Part shown: piece after piece, positions 34,728 through 43,984 of the stretch
Position numbering within the stretch: position 1 is the first letter of the stretch
How the letters are laid out: each line of letters begins with the position of its first letter
The notes under the pieces: model-generated
Seen by the model: the letters and a program-made list of their open reading frames with translations, nothing else
What the model was told of the DNA's origin: nothing
Databases searched by the model: none
Made by a program: the position numbers and the translations under genes
Source of the DNA: Candidatus Bathyarchaeota archaeon
Lineage (GTDB): Archaea > Thermoproteota > Bathyarchaeia > Bathyarchaeales > DTEX01
Assembly (NCBI GenBank): GCA_018396635.1
Contig: JAGTQE010000001.1
Coordinates: forward strand, 62,001 to 126,000
Direction of reading: 5' to 3'
DNA: 64,000 nt

Positions 34728-35075
34728 ATGGTTAGGGGTCTATTGAGGGCCGTAGTATATGGTGTGTCTGCGCTTCTACTGTTTTTAGGTGTGGTTTTTG
34801 TGATGTCATTTAATCTTGGATTAGCCTATCTTCTGGTTGGGGTTATACTTATGTCCGTAGCTATAATATTGCTTGCGCTAACTAGAGAGAGGAAGCCTAT
34901 AGAGATTAAGCAGACAATATCGGTTGGCGGACCAATAAAGGTTAGGGAGGTGCGCTGCCCGGTCTGTGGCGCAAATATAGATGTGACTAAGGTTAGGGTT
35001 GTCGCTGGAAGACCAATAGTTACATGCGGTTATTGTGGAAACAATTTTGAGCTGACAGAGGAGCCATTATGGTAG
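34728..35075 (+). CDS. Small membrane protein with zinc ribbon
   Basis: 115 residues. Two adjacent membrane helices (about 10-30 and 32-49) are followed by a cytoplasmic linker and a zinc ribbon with two CxxC pairs: RCPVCGANIDV and TCGYCGNNFEL (about 77-110). No enzyme signature. Its last seven bases overlap the start of the DUF2207-like gene (ATG inside TTATGGTAG), so the two are translationally coupled. As first gene of the radical SAM operon it may be a scaffold, metal donor or docking subunit; this is inferred from position only. Confidence 0.8.
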   Translation: MVRGLLRAVVYGVSALLLFLGVVFVMSFNLGLAYLLVGVILMSVAIILLALTRERKPIEIKQTISVGGPIKVREVRCPVCGANIDVTKVRVVAGRPIVTCGYCGNNFELTEEPLW

Positions 35076-36655
35076 CAGCTAGTAGGTGGACCATCTTCCT
35101 GCTCCCAATATTTGTTTTGGCTACGTGCATCTATCCGGCTTATGCCCAGGTCAAATATAGGGTTGATAGAGAGTGGGTTCAGATATCGATAAACAAGGAT
35201 GGTTCAATAGACATACTCTATAATATAACCATGACATATATTTCGGGAACTCCTAAGGGCATAATCACCCTTGGGATGCCGAAAAGGGGCTTTCAGATAC
35301 ATTATGTCCGTGATATTGATGGCAGAAACCTCACTCACACAATAGTTTCTTATGGAAACTTTTATGGCGTAGACATAGAGCTTAAAGCCCCAATCTTGTT
35401 AAACAAACCCTACATAGTGATTGTTTGCGCGTCAGTCCCAGAAATGATATATGAGGATGAGGCGAACCCGGGCAATGTTGGGCTGAAATTCTATCCATCA
35501 ACATTCAATGATGCCGAGGGGAAGATAGGTGACATTAGGGTTGCAATAGTCCTCCCAGAAGGGGTTAAAGAGGATGAGGTGAAATATGCTGAAAGAAGTT
35601 TCAGCAATATTTATAGGAATGAGGAGAATCTACTCGTAGTCTACTGGGAGGAGAACAATTGGCCGCCAGCCAAAGAGTTTTGGGTTGGAGTTTCCTTCCC
35701 CAAAAAGTATGTTAATATAGGCCCGGACATTTGGTTTTATATTCTGGTTGGCGGATCGATCGCAGCCTTCATAGCCATGATAGGTGTAGTTATAGTTTTA
35801 GCCTTTAGGGGGTTAAGGAAGGCTAGGTATGAGAAGCCTAGAATAGCTATTGAAGCCCTAGGTCCAGCTCGCGGTCTCACGGCTGTTGAGGCAGCAGTCC
35901 TCTTAGACCTAAAACCCATTAAGGTTTTAACGATGATTTTATTCAGCTTGCTCCTTAAGCGTGCAGTTGAAATAATTTCTACCGATCCAGTGATTAGGCT
36001 TAGGAGGCTGCATCACGATAATACAGATGGGCCCAACTTAAGATACTATGAGATTGACTTTCTATGGGCTATAAGGTCTGATGGAAGTCTGGATGAGAGG
36101 GCGCTTGCAAGATTATACCTCAACCTAAGAGACGCTGTGAACCTCAAGATTAGGGGTTTCTCCAGAATCGACACGATAAATTATTATAGGGATATTGTGA
36201 ATAGGGCTTGGCAGCAGGTTACGCAGGCTGGCACACCAGAGCTTAAATGTGACGCTCTTGAAGGAAACATAGAGTGGCTTTTAGCCGACGAAAGATTTGA
36301 GGAAAGGCTGCGAATAGCGTTCCCACCAGACATAATAATTTATCCTAGGCCTGGCTGGTGGTGGTATTGGGGTTGGCCGCGCGATCAACCTCCAATCCGG
36401 ACTGGTGAGGTTAAGCCGATTCCCATACCCGGCCAAGAGTTCGCAAATAATATAGCCTTAGCGATTCAGAAAGCTGCAAATAATATTGTTTTGAATGTTC
36501 AGGAGTTCGCAAACCGATTAGTTCCAGCGCAGAAGGCGCAGATTGCTCAGAGACCGCTGAGATATCCTAGCTGTGTATGTGCCTGTGCTAGTTGTGCCTG
36601 CGCATGTGCATGTGTGAGTTGTGCGTGCGCTTGCGCCCATGGAGGTGCCCGCTAA
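35069..36655 (+). CDS. DUF2207-like membrane protein with Cys-Ala repeat tail (candidate modified substrate)
   Basis: 528 residues. A signal-like N-terminus (FLLPIFVLATCIYPAYAQ) leads to an extracellular beta-rich domain (about 27-215) with TMTYISGTPKGIITLG. A membrane helix follows at about 222-246 (ILVGGSIAAFIAMIGVVIVL). The cytoplasmic region begins RGLTAVEAAVLLDLKPIKV, like DUF2207-type proteins. It ends with a Trp-rich patch WWWYWGW (430-436), three 11-residue repeats (457-489) and a tail (501-528) with 10 Cys, mostly alternating with Ala. The tail is on the same side as the radical SAM enzyme encoded next. I infer it is the substrate of that enzyme; metal binding without modification is the main alternative. 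Confidence 0.85.
   Translation: MVAASRWTIFLLPIFVLATCIYPAYAQVKYRVDREWVQISINKDGSIDILYNITMTYISGTPKGIITLGMPKRGFQIHYVRDIDGRNLTHTIVSYGNFYGVDIELKAPILLNKPYIVIVCASVPEMIYEDEANPGNVGLKFYPSTFNDAEGKIGDIRVAIVLPEGVKEDEVKYAERSFSNIYRNEENLLVVYWEENNWPPAKEFWVGVSFPKKYVNIGPDIWFYILVGGSIAAFIAMIGVVIVLAFRGLRKARYEKPRIAIEALGPARGLTAVEAAVLLDLKPIKVLTMILFSLLLKRAVEIISTDPVIRLRRLHHDNTDGPNLRYYEIDFLWAIRSDGSLDERALARLYLNLRDAVNLKIRGFSRIDTINYYRDIVNRAWQQVTQAGTPELKCDALEGNIEWLLADERFEERLRIAFPPDIIIYPRPGWWWYWGWPRDQPPIRTGEVKPIPIPGQEFANNIALAIQKAANNIVLNVQEFANRLVPAQKAQIAQRPLRYPSCVCACASCACACACVSCACACAHGGAR
36437..36535 (+). repeat. Three 11-residue repeats before the Cys tail
   Basis: Residues 457-467 (EFANNIALAIQ), 468-478 (KAANNIVLNVQ) and 479-489 (EFANRLVPAQK) align without gaps with a pattern x-x-A-N-(N/R)-hydrophobic. 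An 11-residue period suits a long amphipathic helix. It could be the leader-like region bound by the PqqD-like domain of the enzyme, or a spacer. Confidence 0.7.
36569..36652 (+). other. Cys-Ala repeat tail (28 codons)
   Basis: The last 28 codons of the DUF2207-like protein encode three units, each opening with Ser-Cys: SCVCACA, SCACACACV and SCACACAHGGAR. Ten Cys alternate with Ala or Val, giving C-x-C spacing throughout. All four Ala codons and both Cys codons are used in mixed order, so this is not a young DNA slippage tract and the repeated pattern is kept at protein level. Confidence 0.85.
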
Positions 36656-36657
36656 TC

Positions 36658-38016
36658 ATGGTTAAGATGGGTCTTAGGAGGATTTTTTCCGGGAGGATTA
36701 GACTTCCAATATATCATTTGAGGGTTTATGATAATGTCCATGGGGGTTTAAGGCTTCACTTAAGACTTGAGAGGGATGGAAGCGGTGTATTAATTGTTAA
36801 TGCCTCAAGGGTTCTATTCCTTAATAAGACCGCAGCTGAGTATGTTGCCTCATTTATTAAGGGAGATGGCGAGGATGAAGTCGTGAGGAAAATGGTTAAG
36901 CGCTACAGTATCGACGCTGAAACAGCGCGTAAAGATTATCGTGAAATCCTCTATATAATAAACACTTTCGTGAATACGCCGGATGTCTGCCCAGTCTCAT
37001 ATCTTGGCGTTGAGAAGATGGAGCCCTTCCAGAAGGAGCTGAGCGCACCATATCGTATGGACCTAGCGATAACATATAGATGCAACAATAGATGCGTCCA
37101 CTGTTATGCTGGCGGGCCTAGAGAGACAAGGGAGCTGACTAAAAAAGAGTGGTTTAAGGTTATGGATAAAATCTTTAGTCTCGGGATTCCACATGTTGTC
37201 TTCACTGGTGGTGAACCAACATTAAGGGATGACCTGCCAGAATTAATAGCGTATGCCGAGAAAGTTGGGCTTATATGTGGGCTGGTTACTAATGGACGTA
37301 GGCTTAAAGATAAAAGATACTTCCAATCCCTGGTTGACGCTGGCCTAGACCACATTCAAATAACCCTCGAATCACATAATCCAGAAATCCATGATAGAAT
37401 AACTGGTGTATCTGGGAGCTGGCATGAGACCCTCGAAGGCTTGAAGAACGCTCTCGAGTCACCAATATACACTATAACTAATACGACACTCAACAAATAT
37501 AATGTTGACAATATACTTGAGACTATAAAGTTTATACATGACTTGGGAATAAGGCAGTTCGCATGCAACAGCATAATATATTCTGGGAAAGCTGCTCAAC
37601 CTGATCTCGTCAAAGAATTCGCGATAGAGGAGTTCGAGCTCAAGCCAATTCTCGCTAGAATTAGGGATTATGCGTATGAGCTTGGGATGGAGTTCATATG
37701 GTATACGCCGACAGAATACTGCATATTAAATCCGCTTGAGCTCGATTTGGGAATAAAGACTTGCAGCGCATGCAGAATAAGCATGTGTATAGAACCCAAT
37801 GGAACGGTTATACCGTGCCAGAGCTATTTTGCTCCGCTTGGAAATATACTTAGGGATGATTGGATGAGCATCTGGCAACATCCATTATGCCAAGAGATTA
37901 GGGGCCGAAAGTATGCTCCCGAGAAATGCCGTGAGTGCCCAATGCTGAATATTTGTGGTGGAGGTTGCCCGCTGAAAATCAAGTATAAGACTTATGTTTG
38001 TAGTAGCGTTCCATAA
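36658..38016 (+). CDS. Radical SAM/SPASM maturase with N-terminal PqqD-like recognition domain
   Basis: 452 residues. The N-terminal part (about 30-110) has a PqqD/RRE-like pattern: GVLIVNASRVLFLNKTAAEY, then a helical stretch ending in YSIDAETARKDYREIL. The radical SAM core has the 4Fe-4S motif TYRCNNRCVHCYAG (about 143-156) and VFTGGEPTLRDDLPEL. A SPASM region with further Cys closes the protein: CSACRISMC, then TVIPCQSYF, CRECPMLNICGGGCP and a last Cys. This architecture is that of peptide-modifying enzymes such as PqqE and thioether-forming maturases. ATG 36658 follows GGAGGTG, two bases after the previous stop. The adjacent Cys tail is the obvious target. Confidence 0.92.
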   Translation: MVKMGLRRIFSGRIRLPIYHLRVYDNVHGGLRLHLRLERDGSGVLIVNASRVLFLNKTAAEYVASFIKGDGEDEVVRKMVKRYSIDAETARKDYREILYIINTFVNTPDVCPVSYLGVEKMEPFQKELSAPYRMDLAITYRCNNRCVHCYAGGPRETRELTKKEWFKVMDKIFSLGIPHVVFTGGEPTLRDDLPELIAYAEKVGLICGLVTNGRRLKDKRYFQSLVDAGLDHIQITLESHNPEIHDRITGVSGSWHETLEGLKNALESPIYTITNTTLNKYNVDNILETIKFIHDLGIRQFACNSIIYSGKAAQPDLVKEFAIEEFELKPILARIRDYAYELGMEFIWYTPTEYCILNPLELDLGIKTCSACRISMCIEPNGTVIPCQSYFAPLGNILRDDWMSIWQHPLCQEIRGRKYAPEKCRECPMLNICGGGCPLKIKYKTYVCSSVP

Positions 38017-38298: not shown

Positions 38299-39204
38299 TT
38301 GATTTTCTTTTGGAGGTCTAAAAAAGAAGAAAGTCGACAAAGGAAAGTTGATAGGGCTCAGAAAAGACTGGAAGATTTTAAATCGGCTCAGAATGAGAAG
38401 CAGGCCCCGGCATGGATATCTTCAATTGGAAAGATAGAGAACGAAGTTAATGAAAAGATAAAGACTTTTAATTCGAATATAAAGAATATAAAAGCCTTTT
38501 CTTTAAGACTTGAGGAGTTAGTTAAAATGCTTAATTCCGGCGAAATATCACAGAGCATATATGATCTCTTATTAGAGGAGCTGAGCAATGACCTCTCGCT
38601 TCTCATAGAGGAGACATTTCTTCTTAGGGAAAGCTTAGAGGTTCTAAAGGCTAGAGCTAAGATCGAGTGGGTAAAGGAAAGGATAGGGATGGGTTACTCA
38701 GAAAAGGAGAGCCCACAAACAGATTGGATAAGATACCAAGCGTCATACTCACCAATTTATAAATGGAAAGAGATAGTGGACAAAATAGATAATGCTTTAT
38801 CATCGTTGTCGCTTGAGGAAGAAATTTCATTAATTGAACGCTATCTTTCAACAATCAAGAGGTGGGGAATGCCCACATCGAAGCTAAAGAATTTTGAGGA
38901 GATTAAAAAGATTCTGCAGCAACGCTTAACCACCCTCATGGAAAAATGGTCTTCTATTAGGAAGGATAAGATTGGAAAAATAATGGACCTGGAGATGAAG
39001 GCCTCGCAGATTAAAGATGAAATTAAAGAGGTGGAGGTTAGATATGCTGTTGGAGAAATAGATAGGAGCTACTGCGACTTTATGTTAAGCAAATTGCATG
39101 GTTCTCTAAGAGCAACAGAAAAAGACCTCTATGAAACAAGAAGTTATGTCGATGATATCGACCTAAAGATATTCAGGGTAATGGAAATGCTGAGGGAATT
39201 ATGA
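38299..39204 (+). CDS. Cytoplasmic coiled-coil protein with two SHOCT-like motifs
   Basis: 301 residues, no membrane helix or signal peptide. It is highly charged and mostly helical. The basic N-terminus FFWRSKKEESRQRKVDRAQK leads into coiled coil. Two copies of a short motif occur: NSGEISQSIYDLLLEEL (about 78-95) and AVGEIDRSYCDFMLSKL (about 249-265). The TTG start has GGAGG upstream. Its stop overlaps the next gene by four bases (ATGA), so all three genes here are coupled. I infer an adaptor for the permease, because related motifs end both partner proteins. Confidence 0.8.
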   Translation: MIFFWRSKKEESRQRKVDRAQKRLEDFKSAQNEKQAPAWISSIGKIENEVNEKIKTFNSNIKNIKAFSLRLEELVKMLNSGEISQSIYDLLLEELSNDLSLLIEETFLLRESLEVLKARAKIEWVKERIGMGYSEKESPQTDWIRYQASYSPIYKWKEIVDKIDNALSSLSLEEEISLIERYLSTIKRWGMPTSKLKNFEEIKKILQQRLTTLMEKWSSIRKDKIGKIMDLEMKASQIKDEIKEVEVRYAVGEIDRSYCDFMLSKLHGSLRATEKDLYETRSYVDDIDLKIFRVMEMLREL

Positions 39205-40607
39205 TGGAGAAAAGTCTTTTTAATTTCTTATTCCTCTTTTCCTTGGCTTTGTTCACGTGCCTGGCTGTCCAGGTACTAGTTGTGGATGGGTGGGAGGATG
39301 AATATGGCAATGAAATTTCAGATGTCAACTTACTTGCGCCAGCATACAATGTGACATTGCTTGTAAGCAACTGGGATGAGAGCTCATATCTCGGAGGGTT
39401 AAATGTCTTCGTCTACGATTCAAATGAAAGCTTAATTTTCGCCGGGGTCACGGACGCCTTCGGGAGCCTATACTTAACGCTGAAAGAAGGATTCTATACT
39501 GTTGTTATTAAAAGCGATGAGAGGGTTGTTGGTTATCAAAGGATAAATGTCACGAAATCTAGTACCATAAAAATTAGGGCGTGGGCTTTCACCCTAAGAA
39601 TCACATGTATTGACAGAGAGTCTAGATTTGTTGATGGAGCCATAGTGCATCTTTATGACCGAATGATAATTTTTGACGCAAATGCCACAAATAAAGACTT
39701 CAAAGCTAACATAACTGAGCGAAAGGTATGCTCGGTAAAAACCGATAAAAATGGTACGGCGATCTTCAACAATATTTGGAATGGAACATATAGAATTGTC
39801 GTCGAACACGGCAGGATAATTGGAGAGAAGATAATAGATGTGAATAAGTCTGAGAACTTAACTCTAATATGCAACAGGGTTTCCTTAAAGATAAAAATTT
39901 ACACATCAACGGTATTAAGAAAACCATTATCGAATGCGACAATTCTTTTAGAAGATAGCTTTGGACGTATATTTGCAAAAGAAGTGACTGATGAAGAAGG
40001 AGTAGTCTACTTTAACAATGTTTACGGTGACAATTACACTGTTTTTGTCGATTGGATGGGTTTTGAAGTCTTCTCCGGAACCATAAATGCAAATGTTGAA
40101 AGAGACCTTGAGTTTGAAGTCTCTGTTTTTAGCGTAACAATTCGGGTGGTGGATGCTTTTGGTAACGCTCTCCCCAACTCAAGGGTCACTATAAAGAGAA
40201 TTGTTGGTAGGGTTGTAGTGAAGACATTAGAGCTAGAAGCAGATGAGAGGGGGATTGTCTCAGTTATGCTACCCTCAGGCTACTATGAATTTTCTTGCTC
40301 TAGCGGAATTTACAGTGGTTCAATTATCGTAAACATATTCAATAATTATAGTGGAACAATATCATGCGGTATTCATCCCAATATATTCACCTTGGCATTT
40401 GTTGTTTCAGTGCCACTGCTTCTCTTCTCTTTGCTCTTAGAGAGGCAGAAGATTAGGAAGCCACTAGAGTACAGGAGATATCAAAATATTCTTCTGAGAC
40501 TTGAGAATCTATATAATAGTGGATTAGTGGAGTATAAAATATACCGGAAGCTTAGGGAGGAATATGAGACTAAACTTATGGAGCTTGGCGGGAGGAGAAG
40601 AAGATGA
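39201..40607 (+). CDS. Cell-surface Ig-like repeat protein with C-terminal membrane anchor
   Basis: 468 residues. An N-terminal hydrophobic signal or anchor (LFNFLFLFSLALFTCLAVQV) is followed by about four beta-sandwich repeats of the carboxypeptidase-regulatory/CnaB kind, each with a DxxG turn: TDAFGSLYLTL, TDKNGTAIFNN, TDEEGVVYFNN and ADERGIVSVML. Many N-x-S/T sites suggest glycosylation. A membrane helix (about 396-415) and a basic cytoplasmic end with the motif YNSGLVEYKIYRKLREEY (about 438-455) follow. It overlaps both neighbours by four bases. Likely the extracellular partner of the permease. Confidence 0.83.
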   Translation: MMEKSLFNFLFLFSLALFTCLAVQVLVVDGWEDEYGNEISDVNLLAPAYNVTLLVSNWDESSYLGGLNVFVYDSNESLIFAGVTDAFGSLYLTLKEGFYTVVIKSDERVVGYQRINVTKSSTIKIRAWAFTLRITCIDRESRFVDGAIVHLYDRMIIFDANATNKDFKANITERKVCSVKTDKNGTAIFNNIWNGTYRIVVEHGRIIGEKIIDVNKSENLTLICNRVSLKIKIYTSTVLRKPLSNATILLEDSFGRIFAKEVTDEEGVVYFNNVYGDNYTVFVDWMGFEVFSGTINANVERDLEFEVSVFSVTIRVVDAFGNALPNSRVTIKRIVGRVVVKTLELEADERGIVSVMLPSGYYEFSCSSGIYSGSIIVNIFNNYSGTISCGIHPNIFTLAFVVSVPLLLFSLLLERQKIRKPLEYRRYQNILLRLENLYNSGLVEYKIYRKLREEYETKLMELGGRRRR

Positions 40608-43600
40608 AAGATAGGATTTTACTGAAACATATTGTTATGAGCACATTAATACTCCTTTCACTTACGTCACTCTATAGTAAAGTTGGAAGCCCTGACGGAA
40701 ACTATCTTGTGTGGGTGACACTTTATTTAAGAGAGTATGGAACCGATATTCCAATCGAAAATATTTCCCTATCAATTACAATTGCAACGTCCTCCGGCAC
40801 ACTAAAACAAGGTCCATGGAAATCTGACGAGACTGGTAAAATCGACGTCTTCCTTGGAGAATTTTCTATAAGAGCGCTTTCTACATTACCTAGGGTCGTT
40901 GAACTGTCGTTGACAGGCGATTATCTTCTGATAAAGGTTGGTGAAGTCTTTATTGAAGATATTGATGACCTGGATGCGCAATATGATCTAAAAGGAGTTA
41001 GGTATAAGAATATTCAGATTAACTTTCCAAGCATTCTAAAGCCGGGGAGAGAAGTCGAAATTTTAGACGATAAGGTTTTTGTTAAAATGGGCATTTGGGT
41101 TTTAAAGGGTAAGATAGTATCTATTTCTGATAGAGATCCCTTATCAGGGAAAGATTCAGCAATTTTAGTTAAGCCGTCCGCTAAAGTTGTCTCTGCTATA
41201 GTAGAGAATAAAACAGAGATTTACAAGCATCATTACTTAGTTCCAATCAATTATAATATATTGATAGTGCCAAAAACACCAGTTGGGCAAGCTTTTCGGT
41301 ATAAGGATCTTAGGGTTAAAATAGATGAAAACACGTCATTTATACACTGGATGTATTATGCGGCCTCCTACTATGTGGATACGATAATGCCCTCGCTCAG
41401 AAAAGAGATAAACTGGCTGAAGGCATCTGGTTTACCTATCGATCAGGAGCTTGAGGAGTATAATGCCCTCAACAACCTAGCTATAAGAACGTTATCTTCC
41501 CTCTTAAAAGAGGAATATACTGCAGCCCTTAACGGAATGAGAATTTTCAACAACAGGGTTAACGATTTAATTAAGTGGTTGGCGAACTTAAAGAACCTAT
41601 CAATTGTTAGCACAATTCTCATAGTAATGTTCGCATACTGCTTTTCGTCGCTGCTCTCAGCATTCATATTTGAAGAACCCACGAAGGGAAAGATAAGACT
41701 GATAGTTAAAATACCTCTCTTTATTCTATTGACAATGTTATTTACGCTAACAAACCCTTCAGCAAAGCTGGCATGCATTATACTTATTGGTAGCTCAGTC
41801 GGCGCCCCGGTATCGCCTAATGATATTCAGTCCGCTATACTTGGAACACTTATCTTTGACGCATTGATATATTTCTTAATAGTTGCAGTTACAGTGAAGA
41901 AGTCTCCTATAACGGATCTTGCGCTGCAGATGGGTATAAGAGGATTAAAAAGGAGGGTCTCTAGGTCTATCTTAACATTAACCACAATAGTGATAGTTGT
42001 GGCTTCCTCAGTGCTCTTCATAAACATGTCTGTTGTGAGAGGGACAAAGATTAGAGGCTCATGGCTTGGAACACAAACTCCAAGCATAATAATAAGATCT
42101 GAATCCTACTCACCAAGCATAAATGTCGTTGATGTGAACTGGATTCAGACTAATGAGTGGTGCATGAACGCAAGTTATTTTGAAACAATTAAAAGCTTTG
42201 AGATGGCAGGGCAGGATACTCAAATTTTACGGGCTGGAATGATTAAGTATAATGCTGGATCTTGGCAACCAGTAACTTTGGTCCTAATAGACCCAACATT
42301 TATGGATAAGTATTATAACTTCTCAATCTATGTGAGAGGCTTTTGGAAAGATTTCTCTCTAGGAGAAAATGTTGTTCTTCTGCCAACCACCTATAGCGTG
42401 GCAATCGGAGATTATGTCTTGTTGGGCGTAGACGAAAGCATAATCACACCGCAAGGGGGAATCTCACTTGGAACTAGAAGCCTAGGCGTATTCCGCGTAG
42501 TTGGGAAGTTTGATTTATCTCAAATTTTAGAGCTTAAGAATCTGGATAACACGCCGCTCTTCAAAGAGTCTGCCATAAATATTGCTCTTGCCCCAATTAG
42601 ATCAATAAAGGACCCCGCTATATATATTTCTGAGGTTGTAGCAATAGTTAAACCAGGGTATAATCCAATCGATGTGGCTTCAGAAGTATCTTATTCACTT
42701 GGCCTTCCAGTTATAGCTAACAGTAACGGAATATCTGTCTTGGTTGCGTGGTCTATTGAGGTCTCTATTACGGGATTAATTCAGAGCATTGTGCCGCTGA
42801 TAATAGCTGGGCTAATGATGTATGTATCTATGAATTCAATTTTTGAGGAGAGGAAGAGGGAGCTGCTTACTTTGGCAACATTAGGTATGGATCCACACAA
42901 CGCTTTAATCTCCTTTACTGTTGAGACCCTACTTTATGGTCTGCTAGGAACATTTATAGGTTTCTTTGGAGTATATGCGGTGGTTTCTTCCCTTTCATTT
43001 CTGGAGAGAATTACTGGCCTCTCCATTATGCCACCACAATTAGGTTACTCCGCCTTTACAGTTTTTGTGGCCCTCTTCACTGGCGTACTTATGGTCTTCT
43101 TAGGGGGATATGTGCCATCTATAAAAGCCCAGGGATTGAGCCTTATGGGTAGGGCTAAGGAACGCGAGATATTTGGTGAGCTTATGGAGGAGGGGAATCT
43201 TATGATATTTCCTTTGCCAATAAGGGAAAGCATTCAGAACAGTGAGCTAGTATATGCTTATGTTAAGGAGAGTGTCGCAAAAATGCCCTCCTCCCTAATT
43301 GATCATAAGTCTATAAAGGGCGAGATTAGGAGAGATGGCACCTTTAATATATCCCTTATAGCTTTTGGCCCGGGGCGCACAGTCACAATACCATGTGAGA
43401 TTAGGGGTGAGAGAAGGAGAGATGTTTTGGCGCTGTCGGTTGCCTTTCCAAAAGAATATAGGAGCTACGGCGAAATTGGAAGGGTGCTTCGAAATCTTGA
43501 GTTAAGCATGATAGGTTTCTCGGTGTGGCGTGACATGCAGGTTAAAGCGAAGATCGTGAGGGAGGCCCCTAAGAGGGAGAAGACTGTTGAAGAGATAATA

Positions 43601-43984
43601 GAGGAGGCAAAAGTCGTAATCGAGCAGATAAAGGAGATAAATAGGAAGATTAAGATGCTTGATTCTCAAAAGGATAGGCTTATGGAAGAAACGTATAATG
43701 AGTTTAGACAGAAATATATGCGCTCTCTGGACGAGAAGTATAAGATTTTAAGGTCTATAACGATAGGTTTAGAGCAATACTTAGCCCAATTCAGAGAAGA
43801 AATCAGGAAGATTAACCTAGAGATTGAGAGAAGTACGATAGCCTACAATCTTGGAGAAATTAACGAGGAAGAATATATAAAAATCTGTGGCCCCCTCCAG
43901 AATAGAGTTGCGAGTCTAAAGAGCAAGGTAATGGATCTTGAGGAGATATTTGAGTTCCTTAAGAAGCCATCTGGAGTAATATGA
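40604..43984 (+). CDS. FtsX/MacB-type permease with large ectodomain and cytoplasmic coiled coil
   Basis: 1126 residues. An N-terminal membrane helix (about 8-25) precedes an ectodomain to about 335. A group of helices (about 336-440) follows, then the FtsX core: LTTIVIVVASSVLFINM, a second ectodomain (about 475-710), PLIIAGLMMYVSMNSIFEER, YGLLGTFIGFFGVYAVV and FTVFVALFTGVLMVFLGGY. The C-terminal 280 residues are cytoplasmic, ending in coiled coil with the motif YNLGEINEEEYIKICGPL (about 1080-1097). Such permeases normally pair with an ABC ATPase; none is encoded here. Probably a mechanotransmission or lipoprotein/peptide export complex with the two upstream proteins. Confidence 0.85.
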   Translation: MKDRILLKHIVMSTLILLSLTSLYSKVGSPDGNYLVWVTLYLREYGTDIPIENISLSITIATSSGTLKQGPWKSDETGKIDVFLGEFSIRALSTLPRVVELSLTGDYLLIKVGEVFIEDIDDLDAQYDLKGVRYKNIQINFPSILKPGREVEILDDKVFVKMGIWVLKGKIVSISDRDPLSGKDSAILVKPSAKVVSAIVENKTEIYKHHYLVPINYNILIVPKTPVGQAFRYKDLRVKIDENTSFIHWMYYAASYYVDTIMPSLRKEINWLKASGLPIDQELEEYNALNNLAIRTLSSLLKEEYTAALNGMRIFNNRVNDLIKWLANLKNLSIVSTILIVMFAYCFSSLLSAFIFEEPTKGKIRLIVKIPLFILLTMLFTLTNPSAKLACIILIGSSVGAPVSPNDIQSAILGTLIFDALIYFLIVAVTVKKSPITDLALQMGIRGLKRRVSRSILTLTTIVIVVASSVLFINMSVVRGTKIRGSWLGTQTPSIIIRSESYSPSINVVDVNWIQTNEWCMNASYFETIKSFEMAGQDTQILRAGMIKYNAGSWQPVTLVLIDPTFMDKYYNFSIYVRGFWKDFSLGENVVLLPTTYSVAIGDYVLLGVDESIITPQGGISLGTRSLGVFRVVGKFDLSQILELKNLDNTPLFKESAINIALAPIRSIKDPAIYISEVVAIVKPGYNPIDVASEVSYSLGLPVIANSNGISVLVAWSIEVSITGLIQSIVPLIIAGLMMYVSMNSIFEERKRELLTLATLGMDPHNALISFTVETLLYGLLGTFIGFFGVYAVVSSLSFLERITGLSIMPPQLGYSAFTVFVALFTGVLMVFLGGYVPSIKAQGLSLMGRAKEREIFGELMEEGNLMIFPLPIRESIQNSELVYAYVKESVAKMPSSLIDHKSIKGEIRRDGTFNISLIAFGPGRTVTIPCEIRGERRRDVLALSVAFPKEYRSYGEIGRVLRNLELSMIGFSVWRDMQVKAKIVREAPKREKTVEEIIEEAKVVIEQIKEINRKIKMLDSQKDRLMEETYNEFRQKYMRSLDEKYKILRSITIGLEQYLAQFREEIRKINLEIERSTIAYNLGEINEEEYIKICGPLQNRVASLKSKVMDLEEIFEFLKKPSGVI

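Follow-up and report, generated by a model that had tools for sequence, protein, structure and literature searches.

A giant FtsX-type permease of a Bathyarchaeota archaeon and a stand-alone ATPase pair that may drive it

How an FtsX-type permease is energised when no ATPase is encoded beside it is the question raised by three genes in a 64 kb stretch of DNA from a Candidatus Bathyarchaeota archaeon (contig JAGTQE010000001.1; the whole 64,000-nucleotide stretch is the window below, and coordinates without a contig name are positions in it). The genes, P1, P2 and P3, are plus-strand open reading frames (ORFs) of 301, 468 and 1126 amino acids (aa) with four-base overlaps between neighbours, just as the first-pass annotation of this DNA had placed them. 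Its statement that no ATPase is encoded here or next door also held, as no ATP-binding cassette (ABC) ATPase ORF is present anywhere in the window; the nearest upstream ABC ATPase matches on the contig belong to fused exporter ORFs, the last of which ends 48.6 kb away. Type VII ABC systems (MacB, LolCDE, FtsEX) are known with their cognate ATPase fused to the permease or encoded beside it. P3, a giant permease of this class, is probably driven in trans by two shared, stand-alone LolD-like ATPases, A and B, perhaps paired with a small FtsX-type protein (mini-FtsX), with P1 and P2 as partners specific to the trio. The grounds for this reading come from sequence comparison and comprise trio conservation, the fold and coupling helix of P3, the lineage of the ATPases, and their adjacency to and co-occurrence with giant permeases; from these we infer the pairing of P3 with A/B and mini-FtsX, the sharing, the roles of P1 and P2, and the substrate.

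A conserved trio built around a giant permease

Of 256 genomes of the class, 16 contain an orthologue of P3 (E<=1e-40), all of them within three families (f1, f3 and f5) of one order. The order P1-P2-P3 is kept in 15 loci as far as each reaches, several of them stopping at contig ends. Because P3 identity at these loci ranges from 78 to 42% while the flanking genes are unrelated, the trio appears to be more than a chance arrangement. No ABC ATPase was found in the visible flanks of the 15 loci; besides the window, five (L074, L078, L079, L083 and L085) extend more than 2 kb past the trio on both sides. A survey of conserved neighbourhoods, which the first-pass annotation had proposed as a check, thus revealed no inserted ATPase gene at any of these loci. 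The named relatives recovered by an alignment scan with P3 are, but for one labelled simply as an uncultured archaeon, Candidatus Bathyarchaeota metagenome-assembled genomes (MAGs; 10 loci, all from archaeal MAGs), and most genomes compared are probably MAGs. No homologues were found in viral contigs, and a single-sequence contig scan likewise gave none. One genome, G007, holds P3 only as a fragment, and in another, G013, P1 and P3 are separated by two tandem P2 genes, of 318 and 536 aa (L083:10772-13310).

The P3 gene (40604-43984) encodes a protein with a PF02687 FtsX domain (E=1.9e-10; 41.3 bits against a cut-off of 25.5, residues 729-842). In its AlphaFold2 (AF2) model (predicted local distance difference test score, pLDDT, 72; predicted template modelling score 0.55), residues ~441-853 align with HrtB, MacB, FtsX and LolE (VIA-align Z 12-13, with a large whole-chain root-mean-square deviation, rmsd), and a sequence search of the PDB returned LolF at 1e-9 and MacB at 1e-8. 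The first transmembrane (TM) segment of the FtsX core, TM1 in the model, spans residues 452-472 (41957-42019), and TM2-TM4 span residues 729-845 (42788-43138). Between TM1 and TM2 lies an ectodomain (residues 475-722, 42026-42769) with the fold of the MacB/LolE periplasmic domain: its residues ~485-711 align with MacB 3ftj at Z 10.7 and an rmsd of 3.9 A over 170 residues and with LolE 5udf at Z 10.7 and an rmsd of 5.6, so that the MacB/Lol-type ectodomain characteristic of type VII permeases is found at its expected position (Z 10-10.7). On its sequence and predicted structure, then, P3 is a giant type VII (MacB/LolE/FtsX) ABC permease. It contains no PF00005 domain or P-loop, nor the N-terminal fused ATPase domain of MacB proper.

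The major coupling helix of MacB sits between TM2 and TM3 (PMC5985334). In P3, the stretch between TM2 and TM3 reads EERKRELLTLATLGMDPHN, and residues 745-766 (42836-42901) form the putative coupling, or ATPase-contact, helix, with the pattern SxxEERxRE...LATLGxDPxN. This segment ranks 11th of 1105 windows in conservation, the higher-ranked windows listed belonging to a coiled-coil tail at residues 1069-1102, and the motif EERxRE..TLATLGxDPxN (748-766) is strongly conserved across 12 P3 orthologues. Retention of this helix leads one to expect a motor. P3 has a single FtsX core, a single PF02687 stretch and one coupling helix.

Outside the core, P3 carries a first ectodomain (residues 26-330, 40679-41593), which the AF2 secondary structure divides into a beta, prealbumin-like portion and a helical portion, with a SpaA pilin among its Foldseek matches, followed by extra TM segments (residues 331-431, 41594-41896) seen in hydropathy and as AF2 helices. 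Beyond the core, the model has a cytoplasmic alpha/beta domain (residues 856-985, 43169-43558) and a C-terminal coiled-coil tail (residues 990-1120, 43571-43963). The FtsX/MacB core, two ectodomains and cytoplasmic coiled coil read by the first-pass annotation are therefore all seen in the Pfam match and the AF2 model. A resemblance of the tail to the cytoplasmic domain of Asgard ribophorin-I (8whn; Z 9.6, rmsd 1.7, 66 residues) was not used, as no sequence match accompanied it and helical hairpins match easily.

Stand-alone ATPases and their relatives beside giant permeases

P3 belongs to a superfamily of giant FtsX permeases of 950-1580 aa, further members of which occur in the genomes of these families as class II (~1010 aa), class III (~1040-1110 aa) and class IV (~1500-1580 aa) proteins. 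An hhalign comparison shows P3 to be homologous to the class II giants, with 796 aligned columns (99.8%, E=7e-28); the aligned stretch (columns 43-916) takes in only the start of the cytoplasmic alpha/beta domain and ends before the coiled-coil tail. The ectodomain of one class IV member (L168:3758-8410) matches an M28 peptidase (PF04389, E=5e-13). Nineteen of 20 giant-permease loci examined have no ATPase nearby, the exception being a locus of G020 (L180) in which ATPase B lies upstream of a giant-permease gene run, one gene away from a class IV gene. The genome G006 contains two trios, one of them preceded by a class II giant that ends 79 bp before P1; there (G006:C20, L074:539-11652) the class II giant and the trio follow, on one strand, a gene for a 741-aa protein that weakly matches ABC_transp_aux, placing two giants in one apparent gene run. 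Most of the class IV giants at L167, L168, L169, L173-L175, L177 and L183 adjoin proteins of 620-750 aa with 9-15 TM segments, and the neighbour at L180 matches DUF6785/DUF6784.

The source genome (G000; 1.45 Mb in 35 contigs) has 31 ABC ATPase matches. A search for an orphan ATPase, another check suggested at first pass, uncovered a stand-alone LolD-like pair: whereas the other LolD-type ATPases examined in this genome adjoin an FtsX, ATPase A (G000:C8:10528-11262, minus strand) and its paralogue B (G000:C8:9427-10137, plus strand) do not. The small, ectodomain-less mini-FtsX is encoded at G000:C23:62625-63254. ATPase A is 77-93% identical across f1, f3 and f5, where a small Cys-containing protein usually accompanies it and a PadR-like regulator often does so too, and B is convergent to A wherever both share one contig. 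Full-length A/B proteins scoring at least 465 bits occur only in these three trio-bearing families. Among 61 genomes of the order, 16 have both the trio and A/B, none has the trio only, seven have A/B only and 38 have neither; for giants of any class, the corresponding counts are 22, one (G008), one (G012) and 37, with a p-value of 2e-14 that should not be read literally because the genomes are related. Trio, giants, A/B and mini-FtsX are all missing from G004, a 98% complete genome of the same genus. For its one A/B pair, a genome holds between two and about a dozen giants, and in most genomes A and B lie apart from any giant.

Adjacency of ATPase and giant was observed in other families of the class. 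A second tier of matches to the A/B profile, at 333-407 bits, falls in families f21, f25, f26 and f27, and in all 30 loci there a giant FtsX permease lies 11-322 bp from the A/B-type ATPase on the same contig. In each of the 12 loci examined, the ATPase is also adjoined by a mini-FtsX ORF of 166-228 aa that is 34-45% identical to that of G000; the giant is mostly convergent to the ATPase, whereas in G246 all three genes share a strand, in the order giant, mini-FtsX, ATPase. Phylogenetic analysis, with a LolD outgroup of long branches, recovered a clade of A, B and the f21-f27 ATPases (100/99), separate from the other LolD proteins, with A and B as sisters (98/84). The f21-f27 ATPases (L205-L216) have the signature LSAGQ, and A and B have LSGGQ. 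The simplest history would begin with an ancestral unit of giant, mini-FtsX and ATPase, from which, in the trio lineage, the ATPase was duplicated and detached while the giants multiplied. On one contig of G020 (L217), A, a Cys-rich protein, mini-FtsX and a giant are found together, and this partial linkage can be viewed as a remnant of the ancestral arrangement. The possibility of a shared ATPase elsewhere in the genome, which the first-pass annotation had entertained, is thus well supported by sequence, its lineage adjoining giants in f21-f27 and standing alone, duplicated, in the trio lineage.

Two further arrangements were seen in the source genome. On contig C33 (L098:2259-2937), a permease that gives two FtsX matches adjoins a LolD-type ATPase gene divided between two ORFs, either because the gene is broken or through a sequencing error, and contig C7 (L094:7897-10221) has two adjacent FtsX-type permeases of ordinary size (397 and 376 aa), also with no ATPase neighbour.

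Partners of P3, a possible mechanism and its alternatives

P1 (38299-39204) begins with TTG, preceded by GGAGG, and is the conserved first gene of the trio. Its product is a cytoplasmic helical or coiled-coil protein (AF2 pLDDT 81) with no P-loop or other nucleotide-binding motif, no curated domain over cut-off and no Foldseek match at E<=0.001, its helical matches to axonemal proteins being generic; kinship with CdvA was rejected on this account and on a Pfam score of 15.9 against a cut-off of 30. The C-terminal helical hairpin of P1 (38884-39198) resembles the coiled-coil tail of P3 with an hhalign score of 36.2 (Prob 82%), compared with a maximum of 28.7 for heptad-block-shuffled sequences (n=60) and 15-16 for reversed ones. 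Because this likeness exceeds that of heptad-preserving shuffles, it suggests, weakly, that P1 and P3 assemble.

P2 (39201-40607) is a surface protein with one C-terminal TM segment and repeated prealbumin/carboxypeptidase-regulatory-like domains (PF13620, E=2e-14; SpaA PF17802, E=5e-10). Of the description of P2 as an Ig-like surface protein, the surface location stands, and the Ig-like label gives way to the prealbumin/CarboxypepD_reg-like assignment from Pfam. Its cytoplasmic tail (40434-40604) is strongly conserved, with many invariant residues in 10 orthologues (LLERxKxRKPLEYRRYQN...GLVEYKIYRKL...ELGGRR). Homology of this tail to the hairpins is not claimed, the hhalign probability against P1 being at most 10%.

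In the mechanism that we favour, P1, P2 and P3 would form a surface-facing complex built around P3, to which A and B would bind in trans. On dimerising under the drive of ATP, the ATPases would press on the coupling helix of P3 and thereby move its MacB-like ectodomain, a mechanotransmission as in MacB. With its single FtsX core, P3 must dimerise, and its second half may be another P3, giving a homodimer, or mini-FtsX, giving a heterodimer. A and B probably serve other giant permeases of the genome as well. P1 and P2 are probably held by helical hairpins like the C-terminal tail of P3, and the prealbumin-like domains that both P2 and P3 carry, which point to surface proteins, may contact such proteins or the S-layer. 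A more tentative extension, for which the odds seem somewhat short of even, is a modular type VII system in which giant half-permeases are interchangeable and take turns to pair with a common core of A/B and mini-FtsX. By analogy with ECF importers, each giant would bring its own surface domain, prealbumin-like or, in class IV, M28 peptidase-like, and the trio would add its own coiled-coil partners.

Several observations weigh against driving of P3 by A and B. What was seen of ATPase-giant adjacency concerns class II-like giants rather than the trio; G008, a genome 95% complete with 5% contamination, carries giants on two of its contigs and no A/B, its best match scoring 271 bits; G012 (85% complete) is the reverse case, with A and without giants; of the 23 genomes that have giants, 6, several of which are incomplete, yielded no mini-FtsX; co-occurrence within f1 alone is not significant (p=0.17-0.19), most of the signal coming from related families; and further LolD-type ATPases in the genome could also serve P3.

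The last point leads to an unlikely alternative, in which P3 uses an ordinary LolD/MacB-type ATPase, such as the FtsX-paired G000:C34:49407-50075, or several of them unspecifically, and A/B serve mini-FtsX alone. Ordinary LolD-type ATPases with 52% identity to A do exist in the genome, G008 has giants without A/B, and in G011, G013, G015, G017 and G020 mini-FtsX adjoins A and/or B with no giant directly adjacent. However, it is an A/B-type ATPase that stands beside the giant throughout the f21-f27 loci, giant-free genomes other than G012 have LolD-type ATPases but no A/B, and the C34 ATPases have FtsX partners of their own. It is less probable still that trio, giants and A/B co-occur merely by inheritance in one lineage. 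Confinement of the trio and A/B to three families of one order and the non-significant association within f1 are in keeping with shared inheritance, but ATPase-giant adjacency in four other families, the joint absence in G004 and the rearranged gene positions, which argue against simple linkage, are not. Most improbable is a loss of ATP coupling that would leave the trio a passive mechanosensor, a structural anchor or a device moved by polymerisation of cytoplasmic P1: although none of the 15 trio loci shows an ATPase and conservation in P3 peaks in its tail, nothing outside the tail is better conserved than the coupling helix, which is unexpected in an ATPase-free relic, and P1 has neither a nucleotide-binding motif nor a significant PDB fold match, so that the drive through the coiled-coil protein considered at first pass finds no footing.

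Directly upstream (35069-38016), a DUF2207-like membrane protein (below cut-off) with a C-terminal Cys-X-Cys-rich tail is encoded by a gene that overlaps the one for a radical SAM/SPASM protein, part of which is PqqD-like (36592-38016), a possible peptide-modification pair. Neither gene of this operon has a match among ORFs flanking the trio in relatives; the suggested link of the trio to a surface system of the Cys-tail operon was accordingly abandoned, and the operon was rejected as a component.

Comparison with known permeases and shared motors

The ADOP family (TIGR03434) comprises duplicated FtsX-type permeases that are not known to have an obvious ATPase partner and in this resemble P3. 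They differ in that the FtsX core of P3 is unduplicated, and P3 matched no NCBIfam model at E<=1; a class II giant scored 38 bits against TIGR03434, whose cut-off is 622. P3 also resembles the type VII systems that operate by mechanotransmission, MacB, LolCDE, FtsEX and HrtBA, with which it shares the FtsX-fold TM core, a MacB/LolE-like ectodomain between TM1 and TM2 and a coupling helix between TM2 and TM3 (PMC5985334), and LolD-type ATPases are likewise encoded in the trio genome. Unlike in those systems, no ATPase is fused to the permease or encoded in its operon, P3 has an extra N-terminal ectodomain with TM segments as well as a cytoplasmic domain and coiled-coil tail, and P1 and P2 are added as partners. 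Large permeases with more than four TM segments are also represented by BceB and YbbP, 10-TM members of type VII (VIA-align Z 8.5-11 with P3), but YbbP has two FtsX-type halves per chain (PMC12646458), in contrast to P3 with its single FtsX match and single coupling helix.

Sharing of a motor has precedents in other transporters, although these are importers of other fold classes, in contrast to the sharing by MacB-type permeases in an archaeon proposed here. In ECF group II importers, a stand-alone energising module is common to many specificity subunits. For the MsmK, MsmX and MceG importers, a stand-alone ATPase is reported to be shared by several permeases (PMC4519317, PMC5730181, PMC9947336). 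No papers covering both Bathyarchaeota and FtsX were found in the open-access literature searched, and as far as that literature shows, a detached, shared motor has not been described for this permease class. With a candidate partner named, the problem of the orphan FtsX permease becomes testable, and the trio would offer a first handle on energised surface machinery of Bathyarchaeota. If the proposal is true, the type VII class would gain a new architecture, in which many giants draw on a single detached ATPase pair and perhaps also on a single half-permease.

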